Of a stretch of DNA of 64,000 bases, positions 56,323 through 62,835 are shown piece by piece. Source of the stretch: Thiomonas delicata (GTDB lineage Bacteria; Pseudomonadota; Gammaproteobacteria; Burkholderiales; Burkholderiaceae_C); the NCBI RefSeq assembly GCF_900088825.1, contig NZ_LT592171.1, forward strand, positions 730,425 to 794,424. Reading direction: 5' to 3'. The notes under the pieces are model-generated. The model was given only the letters and a program-made list of their open reading frames with translations, made no database searches and was not told the origin of the DNA. How positions within the stretch are numbered: the stretch's first letter is position 1; the number at the start of each line of letters is the position of its first letter. Position numbers and translations under genes: made by a program.

Positions 56323-56425
56323 GTCGATGACGCGACAGTTTGACTGTCGCTCCGGCCATGCCGCCGAGGCGGCACGTACCGTCCTTCACCCCCTCGAAAC
56401 AACGTTGTGCATTGGAGACGCCGTC

Positions 56426-58556
<2,131 letters not shown>

Positions 58557-58625
58557 CGTGATCACGGCGCCATCACCCCAAGCGGCGGTAGCACGCGGAT
58601 ACATGGCGGCCTCAAATCTGAAGTG

Positions 58626-60536
58626 GTGCGCCGGGAGACCGGCAAGGAGTAGGTGGTGCAAGTCCACTGCGATGAAGGAATAGCGAACCGCATCGACCCC
58701 GAGCCGTGCGCAGGCATCCGTGAGGATGTCGGCGAAGCGTCGGCAGGGGGACGTACAGGCCAGCCATTGAGCCGCGATAGGATTTCTATTCCGGGTGCCG
58801 ACACCGTCACTTCTGTGGAAGGCAACATCGACGGGTGCGTCAACGCAAGCGCCCGCTGGACCCGGCGTGGTCGTAGAACCTGGCATGTACGCACGCTCCT
58901 GGCACGGGAACCGGGAGATCTCGGGTCTGACCAGCCGCTGTACGGGCTGGCCCGCATTGGGAAGGCGAGGAGCCGAAGCCAATGATGAACGGACCCGAGA
59001 AGTCAGACTCGGTCGTAGTAGCTGTGAAGCCCGCGAACAAGGCCGGTCCGCCGGTTGCGGAGTGGGTGGAGCGAAGGACCGGGACCAAGGGGAACACGGA
59101 ACAGCCGCACACGCGACGGACACAGAGCCGCGATAGCGTGTCACAGGAGCTGGACTGTGTACGGAAAGCTGCAAGGCAGCGGAAGAAGGAGAAGTTCACC
59201 GCGCTGCTGCACCACGTCAGTGTTGACCTGCTGAGGGAATCGTTCCTGGCGCTCAAGCGCCGTGCCGCTCCCGGGGTTGATGGTCTGACATGGCAGGACT
59301 ACGAGGCGGGTCTGGAGGTCAACCTCCTCGACCTGCATGCACGGGTTCATAGCGGAGGGTATCGGGCGCTGCCCGTCAGGCGACGGTTCATACCCAAGTC
59401 TGGCACCGACAAGCAGCGACCGCTGGGTATCGCCGCGCTGGAAGACAAGATCGTCCAGCGTGCGCTCGTTGCGGTGCTCAATGCCATCTACGAGGAAGAC
59501 TTCCTTGGGTTCTCGTACGGGTTTCGGCCTGGGCGGGGTCAGCACGATGCGCTTGATGCACTGTCGGTGGCGATCAGCGGCACCCCGGTGAACTGGATTC
59601 TCGACGCGGATATTCGGAGCTTCTTCGATTCGGTCAGCCAGGAATGGCTGCTCCGTTTCCTCGGCCACCGGATCGGCGACGAGCGCGTCATCCGCCTTGT
59701 GCGCAAGTGGCTCAAGGCGGGCGTCCTGGACGACGGGGAGTGGAGCGTCAGTGCCGAAGGCACGCCGCAGGGGGCCGTGATCTCACCGCTGCTTGCGAAC
59801 GTGTACCTGCACGATGTCTTCGACCTGTGGGCCAAGCAGTGGCGAGGGCGGGAGGCAACGGGCAACATGATTGTCGTGCGCTATGCCGACGACATCGTTG
59901 TCGGCTTTCAGCACGAAGCCGATGCACGGCGCTTCTGGGACGCGATGCGAACGCGGTTCGAGCAGTTTGGGCTCGAACCGCACGGGGAGAAGACGCGCCT
60001 GCTGGAGTTTGGCCGCTACGCGGCTGAGCGCCGCTCGCGGCGCGGTCTGGGCAAACCTGAGACGTTCATGTTCCTGGGTTTCGTCTTCATCTGCGGTCGG
60101 TCCCGACGTGGCGCATTCTTGCTCCACCGAAAGACCCGGGGCGATCGGATGCGAGCGAGGCTCAGGGAGATCAAGGCGACGTTGCGTGAGCGCATGCATG
60201 CACCGATCCCTTCCCAGGGGCGGTGGCTCGCGTCGGTGCTCAACGGCTATTTCGCCTACCACGCAGTGCCCACGAATTTCCGGGCACTCGGGGCGTTTCG
60301 ACACCACGTCTTGAATCTCTGGCTGCGAACGCTGCGGCGCCGCAGTCAAAGGCAAAACCTGACGTGGGAGCGCATGACGCGAATCGCAGAAGACTGGCTC
60401 CCAATCCCAAGAATCCTTCATCCATGGCCTCAACAGCGCTTTGCCGTCAAGCACCCGAGGTAGGAGCCGTATGCCCGAATCGGGCCCGTACGGATCTGTG
60501 CGGGGGGTGGCCGGTAACGGGCATCTCTACCGCGAT
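58626..60536 (+). mobile_element. Group II intron with reverse transcriptase/maturase
   Basis: Retroelement of about 1.91 kb. The 5' end is GTGCGCCGGGAGACC, the usual GUGYG start. A reverse transcriptase ORF occupies the middle. Domain V is recognisable at about 60466-60500 (GAGCCGTATGCCC, GAA-type tetraloop region, GGGCCCGTACGG), followed by a domain VI hairpin ending CTCTACCGCGAT at 60536. The ends are fixed by the rejoined IS30 repeat on either side. Confidence 0.8.
58982..60463 (+). CDS. ltrA: Group II intron reverse transcriptase/maturase
   Basis: Intron-encoded protein of 493 residues needed for splicing and mobility. The reverse transcriptase blocks include GVDGLTWQDYE, RRFIPKSGTDKQRPLGIAAL, FSYGFRPGRGQHDAL, ILDADIRSFFDSV, GTPQGAVISPLLANVYLH and the catalytic YADD at 301-304. 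The maturase (X) domain follows with LNGYFAYHAVPTNFRALGAFRHHV. No HNH endonuclease domain is evident at the C terminus. The reading frame is intact. The true start may be further in than 58982, as the first ~60 residues look unconserved. Confidence 0.92.
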   Translation: MMNGPEKSDSVVVAVKPANKAGPPVAEWVERRTGTKGNTEQPHTRRTQSRDSVSQELDCVRKAARQRKKEKFTALLHHVSVDLLRESFLALKRRAAPGVDGLTWQDYEAGLEVNLLDLHARVHSGGYRALPVRRRFIPKSGTDKQRPLGIAALEDKIVQRALVAVLNAIYEEDFLGFSYGFRPGRGQHDALDALSVAISGTPVNWILDADIRSFFDSVSQEWLLRFLGHRIGDERVIRLVRKWLKAGVLDDGEWSVSAEGTPQGAVISPLLANVYLHDVFDLWAKQWRGREATGNMIVVRYADDIVVGFQHEADARRFWDAMRTRFEQFGLEPHGEKTRLLEFGRYAAERRSRRGLGKPETFMFLGFVFICGRSRRGAFLLHRKTRGDRMRARLREIKATLRERMHAPIPSQGRWLASVLNGYFAYHAVPTNFRALGAFRHHVLNLWLRTLRRRSQRQNLTWERMTRIAEDWLPIPRILHPWPQQRFAVKHPR

Positions 60537-60564
60537 CAACACCCCAAGCCTGTAAGGTGTTGCG

Positions 60565-61590
60565 ATGCAAAGGACGACGACGTACCGACAGCTTCAACCG
60601 GAAGAGCGCATGACGATGGCCAGTTTGATGCAGCAGGGGTGCAGTGTTCGGGCCATGGCCCGAACACTGGGGCGTGCGCCCTCGACCATCAGTCGGGAGC
60701 TTGGCCGCAATGGCGAGGACACGAGGCCCTATGCGGCCGCAACGGCGCAGCAGCGCTGTGCGACGCGCCGGGATGCCGCACGCCCGTCTCCCAAGCTGCA
60801 CCGGGACGGCATCCTCTGGGGCGTGGTCACTGCCTTGCTGGACTGGAAGTATTCGCCCCAGCAGATTGCTGGCACACTGCTGCGGGTGTATCCCGAGCGC
60901 CCCGAGCTGCAGGTCTCGCATGAGACCATCTACACCGCCATCTATGCCCATGCCCGCGGGGAGTTGCGACGGCAGTTGATGGCCTGTCTGCGCCACGGCC
61001 ACAGCAAGCGCATGCCGCGCTCGCGTGGCACCGACCGCCGCGGCCAGATTCCCGAGATGGTCAGCATCCATGTGCGCCCGCCCGAGATTGAAGACCGCTT
61101 GATGCCGGGACACTGGGAGGGCGACCTCATCAAGGGGGCTGGCAACAAATCCGCCGTGGGCGTGCTGGTCGAGCGTTCCAGCCGTCTGCTGTTGCTCGTC
61201 CAGATGCCCGATGCCACGGCCGCCTCGGCCCTGGCTGGCTTGACGGCCAAGCTGCGGTCGATTGCTGCGCCACTGCGCCAGAGCATGACGTACGACCAGG
61301 GTCGAGAGATGACCCGCCATGCCGAGCTCACCGCCAACACCGGCGTGCGCGTGTACTTCTGTGACCCCCACAGCCCCTGGCAGCGCGGCACCTGCGAGAA
61401 CACCAACGGATTGCTGCGCCAGTATCTGCCCAAGGGCACCGACCTGTCGGTGTACTCCCAGGCTGACCTGGACACCATTGCCGACAGCCTCAATGGCAGA
61501 CCAAGGGCCACCCATGCATTCCATTCCCCGTTGGAGGTCTTCGCGCAAATGCTGGCCAATACCCACGAAGCTCCCTCCTCAATTCAATAA
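60565..61590 (+). CDS. IS30-family transposase
   Basis: Transposase of 341 residues. The N-terminal helix-turn-helix domain reads LQPEERMTMASLMQQGCSVRAMARTLGRAPSTISREL, and the DDE domain has GHWEGDLIKG, MTYDQGREM and the E-containing CDPHSPWQRGTCENTNGLLRQYLPKGTDLS. All motifs and the length are normal, so the protein should be active, although the left inverted repeat of its element is interrupted by the intron. Confidence 0.92.
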   Translation: MQRTTTYRQLQPEERMTMASLMQQGCSVRAMARTLGRAPSTISRELGRNGEDTRPYAAATAQQRCATRRDAARPSPKLHRDGILWGVVTALLDWKYSPQQIAGTLLRVYPERPELQVSHETIYTAIYAHARGELRRQLMACLRHGHSKRMPRSRGTDRRGQIPEMVSIHVRPPEIEDRLMPGHWEGDLIKGAGNKSAVGVLVERSSRLLLLVQMPDATAASALAGLTAKLRSIAAPLRQSMTYDQGREMTRHAELTANTGVRVYFCDPHSPWQRGTCENTNGLLRQYLPKGTDLSVYSQADLDTIADSLNGRPRATHAFHSPLEVFAQMLANTHEAPSSIQ

Positions 61591-61794
61591 CCAACGGGTG
61601 TTGCACTTCACTATTGAAACCGCCCTTTTTCATGCCTATCGCGGTGTCAGGAACTTTAGCCTGTTCCAACCCATCCACTGGGGAGGATGCCACCGATATT
61701 CCCCCGCGTCGATTGATTTGCGCTTGCTCGAGGTAACTTGAGTCCATGCAGCCGTCGTTCCCCCCGTCCTCCCAACCCCAAGGAACTTTGCCCG

Positions 61795-62835
61795 ATGAAA
61801 CCCCGCTTGCGTCTGTCCAGCCTTGCCCTGCTCGCGCTGATGGCTGTGGCGGCACCAGCCGCTCCTGCATATGCCTCCCCGGCGGGCGCATCCGCGTTCT
61901 TGGTCGGAGCCTTCCAGGCCCCACCCATGGGGGGAGGCCCGGGCAAAATGGCGGTGGTGCGCTGGCCCGGCAATGCTGCGCATGTGCTGAATTTTGGCCA
62001 GGCTGGAACACCCAAGGGGAATAGCTTTTTTGTCGGTGTGAATGCGCAGGACCACCAAGTCTTCATCCCGAGTCTTGCCGGGACCACCGATGTGATCGAC
62101 CTTCGTACAGACAAACCGGTCGGGCAGTTCAAGAGCATCCCGGGTGGGCGCGTGGCGGTGGTGTCGCCTGACCACCGCCTGGTGTTCGTGCTCTCCGGCA
62201 AGGCATTGGCGGCGTACGCAACCCGCGATGATGTGTTGCGCTACGAGATCCCGGTTGGTGGCAATGCGTTGGCGTTCAACGCGGACGCCAGCCACTTGTA
62301 TGTGGGTGGCAATATGGATACGGCCATCACCGATATCGATCCCTCCACCGGTCAAATCCTGCGGCGGATCCCCATCGGTCATTCCGGGGATCTGGTCTGG
62401 GCGCACGGATTGTTGTTCTCGGCAGACATTCAGAGTGGCGTAATGACTGCCTTCAATCCCGTGACCAACCAGATCGTCAACATGAGGACTAGCGAGGTTG
62501 ACCCCAATTTCGCCTACAACAAAATTCCTGCCGCAACAGCAGGATTCATGCAATTGGCGGTGAGCCCTCGTCAAGACATCGTGTATGCAGCCGGCTTTTC
62601 TGGTCACATTTTGCGGTTCTCTACCATCGGGCCGCGCTATCTGGGTGAGGTCAAGGTTGCCGTCGGCAAGGAAGGGCCCAACAAGCTCAGCGGTCTTGCG
62701 GTGCTGCCCCATGGAACCAAGGCCATCACGACCATCGAAAACCGTCACGAGTCCGTGGTGGTCGACCTTCGCACTGGCCAAGTGCTCAAGCGTCTGCCAG
62801 GCATCGCCAGCAATCGCTGGGTGCTGGCGCGCTAA
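61795..62835 (+). CDS. Secreted YncE-like beta-propeller protein
   Basis: Exported protein of 346 residues: signal peptide (LSSLALLALMAVAAPAAPAYA) and about six repeats of a seven-bladed propeller type, with segments such as TTDVIDLRTDKPVGQFKSI, AFNADASHLYVGGN and VVDLRTGQVLKRLPGI. No catalytic motif is visible. It may scaffold or bind ligands in the periplasm. A ribosome binding site (AAGGAAC) is 14 nt away, a rather long distance. It is followed 44 nt later by a secreted DUF302 gene. Confidence 0.75.
   Translation: MKPRLRLSSLALLALMAVAAPAAPAYASPAGASAFLVGAFQAPPMGGGPGKMAVVRWPGNAAHVLNFGQAGTPKGNSFFVGVNAQDHQVFIPSLAGTTDVIDLRTDKPVGQFKSIPGGRVAVVSPDHRLVFVLSGKALAAYATRDDVLRYEIPVGGNALAFNADASHLYVGGNMDTAITDIDPSTGQILRRIPIGHSGDLVWAHGLLFSADIQSGVMTAFNPVTNQIVNMRTSEVDPNFAYNKIPAATAGFMQLAVSPRQDIVYAAGFSGHILRFSTIGPRYLGEVKVAVGKEGPNKLSGLAVLPHGTKAITTIENRHESVVVDLRTGQVLKRLPGIASNRWVLAR

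Follow-up and report, generated by a model that had tools for sequence, protein, structure and literature searches.

In Thiomonas delicata, the left inverted repeat of an IS30 element is interrupted by a complete, 1911-nt group II intron, and we have mapped the three recognition elements through which the intron would read that target. In the window (the whole 64,000-nucleotide stretch of DNA analysed here), a merA-like gene (56706-58556) that matches merA of plasmids ends about 50 bp upstream of the element. IS30 left ends are, as read from sequence, best regarded as the homing site of this intron, because its EBS1 and EBS2 match the target at 12 of 12 positions and an intron of a distinct sub-lineage interrupts another IS30 left end at the same nucleotide. 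To the explanation as a whole, in which base pairing guides reverse splicing into the IS30 left repeat, such ends act as a homing site and the DNA end is left split, we assign a probability of roughly 0.8.

An intron inside an IS30 inverted repeat

The position of the intron inside the left inverted repeat is confirmed. The IS30 element spans 58605-61624, is split after the 21st base of its left repeat, and measures 1109 bp without the intron (21 + 1088). Leaving out 58626-60536 joins 58605-58625 (GGCGGCCTCAAATCTGAAGTG) to 60537-60544 (CAACACCC), and when the right end (61596-61624) is reverse-complemented, 24 of 29 positions agree with the joined left end, a symmetry that the first-pass annotation had pointed out. 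Intact relatives offer a stronger test, and carry the joined sequence rather than a dissimilar end: GGCGGCCTCAAATCTGAAGTG runs uninterrupted into CAACACC in L102, L118 and IS1086 (L149), as well as in three contig-edge copies of another genome (L196, L200 and L202 in G020), and L122 has the same sequence with one mismatch. Also empty is the nearest intact IS30, L101 from the same genus (93.75% over 1088 nt), whose slightly different end, GGCGGCCTCAAAGCTGTGAAGTG, is followed by CAACACC. The span first proposed, 58604-60544, was right in placing the insertion within the left inverted repeat, but the IS30 end begins one base later, at 58605.

Terminal inverted repeats (24/29 with the insert disregarded) and a transposase matching NF033563 identify the element as a member of the IS30 family. 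By eye, no exact target duplication flanks it (CAT at 58602-58604 against CTT at 61625-61627), whereas the intact L148 (CAG) and L149 (GAG) have 3-bp duplications; rearrangement or mutation of this copy would explain the difference, and the transposase family call is unaffected. The N-terminal part of the transposase frame contains a perfect 28-bp palindrome (CAGTGTTCGGGCCATGGCCCGAACACTG, 60642-60669), which is complete in L101 and 26 bp long in L148. Just outside the right end, 32 bp (61629-61660) have a 94% copy on the other strand at G000:C5:1743372-1743403.

Independently of the IS30 repeat, the intron ends are fixed by relatives that carry the same two ends. A 5' end was recognised in 53 of 81 relatives, 38 of which begin exactly GTGCGCCGGGAGAC, and 3' ends near CTACCGCGAT were recognised in 73 of the 81. 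These agree with the boundaries first drawn at 58626 and 60536, and Rfam models account for domains I to VI between them. The core of domains I to IV matches RF02005 well above its gathering score, and domains V and VI lie directly 5' of the 3' end, where RF00029 matches over its full length (E 8.6e-06) at a score just below its gathering score of 40. Domains V and VI fold into two hairpins (z = -2.59), with 2 of 200 shuffles folding equally well.

The encoded reverse transcriptase/maturase has a YADD motif, read off the translation, and its PDB matches include group II reverse transcriptase structures. Pfam recognises RVT_1 alone in this protein, and neither Pfam nor NCBIfam gives an endonuclease domain at E 0.001. 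The RNA core, the placement of domains V and VI and the EBS-IBS pairing described below, the last with shuffled controls, are those of a mobile group II intron, and its sequence suggests that it probably still splices.

Features of the intron and the IS30 element, in window coordinates
Feature	Position	Strand	Basis
Outer 21 bp of IS30 left inverted repeat (5' exon)	58605..58625	+	Identical in intact L102, L118, L149
Intron target: IBS2 AAATCT (58614-58619), IBS1 GAAGTG (58620-58625)	58614..58625	+	12/12 with EBS2/EBS1
Group II intron	58626..60536	+	Ends common to relatives; Rfam RF02005 and RF00029
Intron RNA core, domains I to IV	58659..58880	+	Rfam RF02005 (group-II-D1D4-6), 187.2 bits, gathering 49
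EBS2 GGATTT	58780..58785	+	Covariation with IBS2
EBS1 CACTTC	58808..58813	+	Covariation with IBS1
EBS3 G	58873	+	Pairs with C at 60537, first 3' exon base (+1)
Intron-encoded reverse transcriptase/maturase, 493 aa	58982..60463	+	TIGR04416, 326.5 bits, cut-off 300
Intron domains V and VI	60462..60536	+	RF00029, 39.9 bits, and fold
Inner part of IS30 left inverted repeat (3' exon)	60537..60544	+	CAACACC in intact relatives
IS30 family transposase, 341 aa, frame open	60565..61590	+	NF033563, 315.1 bits, cut-off 80; HTH_38 and rve (Pfam)
IS30 right inverted repeat	61596..61624	-	24/29 identical to joined left end

Base pairing with the IS30 left end

All 12 positions of AAATCTGAAGTG pair with EBS2 and EBS1, 11 of them as Watson-Crick pairs and one as a wobble, and the first-pass suggestion of a pairing with GAAGTG is backed by covariation. 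Three separate EBS/IBS elements are a trait of the IIB subclass. The comparison drew on 43 introns, namely that of the window and those relatives (about 95 fetched) whose 5' end was recognised by pattern, leaving out near-duplicates (L031, L036, L038 and L012) and degenerate starts. Covariation was scored in gap-free windows for 42 of the 43, which have different insertion sites; the truncated L013 was dropped. Of 252 EBS1/IBS1 cells, 238 were paired (mean 108 and maximum 141 over 2000 shuffles); for EBS2 and the five nucleotides from -12 to -8, the figure was 175 of 210 (42 introns; shuffle mean 89, maximum 113). In 32 of 34 introns, the base in the EBS3 column was the complement of the first nucleotide of the 3' exon (mean 12.6 and maximum 22 over 500 shuffles). 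EBS2 and EBS3 are the best columns of a column scan, and their shuffled controls apply to the column chosen. One intron, L039, pairs poorly (2/6 and 1/5), probably with a misplaced end, and was scored as a miss.

The element's own right end pairs with the intron at 9 of 12 positions against 12 of 12 for the left; pairing thus accounts both for insertion at the left end and for its sense orientation. The end of L101 pairs at 10 of 12. Introns of this family commonly show a high EBS/IBS match wherever they sit, so the perfect match is by itself no proof of a dedicated homing site.

We suggest that an intron lacking a recognisable endonuclease domain would read an IS1086-like IS30 left repeat through EBS2-IBS2, EBS1-IBS1 and EBS3 with the +1 base, and would reverse-splice there, in the same sense as the transposase gene. 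Entry may be into single-stranded DNA at replication forks, the route described for RmInt1. The IS30 DNA end would thus be divided into 21 bp, 1.9 kb of intron and the remainder, and the inner left repeat with CAACACC now lies 1.9 kb from the IS30 tip. Judging from this arrangement of the DNA, the split end probably no longer works in transposition and the IS30 is probably immobilised, which agrees with, but does not prove, what is seen in the genome: a single complete copy and no exact target duplication. Splicing could restore the joined leader in RNA only. A promoter scan found no sigma-70-like promoter in the region or in an intact IS30 start, a result that decides nothing.

IS30 left ends as a probable homing site

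The 12-mer AAATCTGAAGTG is almost confined to IS30-like left ends, which account for 13 of its 14 occurrences (by eye) in six genomes that were picked for their IS30 relatives or for the island rather than at random; the reversed pattern has 0 occurrences in the same six. Four of the occurrences are in the window genome, all at IS30-like ends by eye: one is occupied, and three (L190, L191 and L193) are remnants or diverged IS30 ends with a perfect 12-mer and no intron. The five further genomes, four picked because they carry IS30 relatives and one because it carries the island, contribute ten, nine of them IS30-like; L194 is the exception and L197 shows a weaker likeness. Some sites are redundant, L192 and L198 being the same insertion and L190 and L203 the same remnant in two genomes. 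This short IS30 left-end remnant has the same left flank at L190 (C4:200061) as at L203 (G013), in the same genus.

Plasmid 4 of Variovorax sp. WDL1 provides an independent recurrence. There, the IS30 left end GGCGGCCTCAAGTCTGAAGTG passes directly into an intron start, with the break at the identical nucleotide, and IS30 transposase remnants (71-72% to that of the window) follow downstream on the same strand. The intron fragment is 97.8% identical (89 nt) to L060 and 96.5% to both L056 and L022, which are inserted at sites elsewhere, and 80.5% identical (87 nt) to the window intron. Being closer to L060 than to the window intron, it represents a separate arrival of a different sub-lineage; the fragment is truncated ahead of its EBS, and so bears on the site and not on the pairing.

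Wider scans returned few further candidates. The plasmid query with the 5' junction matched 94 records, and among the 30 of these 94 that were listed the one with at least 80% coverage was Variovorax WDL1; the plasmid query with the 3' junction gave no matches. Cupriavidus necator N-1 was considered as a second plasmid case and rejected, its exon not being an IS30 end. At up to three mismatches, 12 of 399 genomes in the order sample matched, with an intron start in the window's own only. Five of 399 matched in the family sample (the window's own and G655 being real and three not introns), and one of 369, the window's own, in the class sample. Viral contigs gave 2 matches to the 5' junction and 12 to the 3' junction, none of them an intron by eye.

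G655, from another genus of the same family, carries the same island at the same mer locus, with 95.0% identity in the merA flank, 99.95% in the intron and 99.26% in the IS30. We therefore count G655 and the window as one insertion rather than two, and the island of mer operon, intron and IS30 would then have spread to, or been inherited by, at least one other genus. Between G000 and G655 the intron differs by 1 SNP in 1911 and the IS30 by 8 in 1102 (Fisher p 0.0019), an imbalance that might have pointed to separate homing into diverged IS30 copies. That idea was dropped since recombination explains the mosaic divergence map (56400-62240 against L172) equally well: merA is diverged, 58518-60986 has one SNP, 60987-61494 has eight and 61495-62240 has none. 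The mosaic differences fit transfer and recombination of the mer island.

The habit is rare in the intron family, for no IS30 end is occupied by any of the 81 relatives (0 of 53 recognised 5' flanks and 0 of 73 recognised 3' flanks). The expectation that other copies would occupy the same site is borne out by the Variovorax plasmid and G655, the latter being the same insertion, and not by these 81. Nor does the window genome show several copies in the same insertion sequence, a trait of introns of the RmInt1 and RmInt2 kind; it has one copy.

An ectopic, one-time retrotransposition by partial match, after which the EBS drifted towards its flank because splicing needs the match, would leave IS30 ends as no homing site at all. 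Such an event could account for 81 relatives at other sites, for one copy in a genome with three perfect sites empty, and for EBS matches that are high at unrelated sites too. We consider it unlikely, since it does not predict that another sub-lineage should break a different IS30 at exactly the same nucleotide, or that the 12-mer should be so nearly confined to IS30-like left ends in the six genomes. From these observations we infer that IS30 left ends are a homing site rather than a one-off ectopic target. Of the two possibilities raised in the first-pass annotation, a stranded IS30 end and IS30 ends as the preferred homing site, the latter has become the better supported reading, on the 12/12 pairing and the Variovorax case as one independent recurrence.

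It is far less probable that the composite is still mobile, the IS30 transposase using the right end together with the outer 21 bp while the intron rides along. The transposase frame and outer 21 bp are intact in G000 and G655, and there are two known loci where an IS30 end contains an intron (the window and Variovorax), but the Variovorax intron belongs to a different sub-lineage and is not a moved copy of the window's. Single copy number in the window genome, the shared mer locus of G655, the distance to the inner repeat and flanks without an exact target duplication, in contrast to L148 and L149, also oppose joint movement. We give practically no credence to a coincidental repeat, or to an intron that was there first with an IS30 inserted beside it. 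No support was found for either; intact relatives holding the exact joined sequence refute them, and an IS30 arriving beside the intron would have brought its own complete left end.

Building on the homing-site reading, a broader proposal is possible, and we offer it tentatively. The IS1086-like left end may be a convergent landing site for which separate intron sub-lineages reprogrammed EBS1, EBS2 and EBS3. The intron might then act as a self-spreading inactivator of IS30 ends that leaves the transposase frame intact, possibly expressed through a spliced mer read-through transcript.

Introns that home to insertion sequences

Introns homing to insertion sequences, and even to their inverted repeats, are already published, and the case described here adds a clearly resolved instance of this behaviour without amounting to a new type of system. 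For RmInt2 of Sinorhizobium meliloti, both inverted repeats of ISRm17, left and right, are reported to serve as targets (PMC5894124). The two introns are alike in taking terminal inverted repeats of an insertion sequence as DNA target, but the target of RmInt2 is another element used at both repeats, whereas pairing of the window intron favours the left. The insertion within an inverted repeat, which the first-pass annotation had called unusual, is thus real but less unusual than claimed.

RmInt1 is reported to have its natural homing site inside ISRm2011-2 (IS630 family), where insertion blocks spread of the element (PMC5894124), and this intron, whose protein lacks an endonuclease domain, is described as inserting into single-stranded DNA at replication forks (PMC8914252). 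A site in an insertion sequence and a protein without an endonuclease domain are common to RmInt1 and the window intron; the RmInt1 site is described as within the element rather than shown at its end, and RmInt1 has many copies per genome where the window intron has one (PMC5894124, PMC8914252). E.c.I4 and other Enterobacteriales introns are reported to retrohome into IS629, IS911, ISEc16 and ISEc31, and share with the window intron a specific insertion sequence as target, but in transposase genes, not a terminal repeat (PMC3522654); that text contains 0 mentions of IS30. IStrons likewise combine an intron and an insertion sequence at one locus, but are described as chimeras with a group I intron that move as a unit (PMC4227781), whereas here a group II intron interrupts the end of the element with no sign of joint movement. 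No intron in an IS30 end was found in the limited literature searched.

Relatives of the window intron also occupy transposase genes of IS110 (L006, L037 and L038) and DUF772/DDE type (L030, L031, L036, L047 and L049), assigned by Pfam for L037 and L047 and by flank similarity, by eye, for the others. They are of the same intron family and show recurrent sites in insertion sequences, but lie inside coding sequence, not a terminal repeat; they recur at fixed codons of these genes in different genera. A further group (L007, L008 and L012) lies beside imuA on plasmids of Burkholderia cenocepacia, B. anthina and B. aenigmatica, in each case after the same TACAGT, a hexamer that resembles the tip of a palindromic SOS-type operator.

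Group II introns depend on landing sites that are safe and frequent, and the ends of insertion sequences are conserved, multi-copy and rarely essential. The target code of the present intron is unusually complete, with one convergent case: all three recognition elements are mapped, the target is nearly unique to IS30-like ends in the genomes searched, perfect sites in the same genome stand empty and a second sub-lineage has entered at the same base. These findings extend the habit reported for RmInt2 and ISRm17 to the IS30 family, and make it directly testable whether introns track and disarm particular families of insertion sequences.
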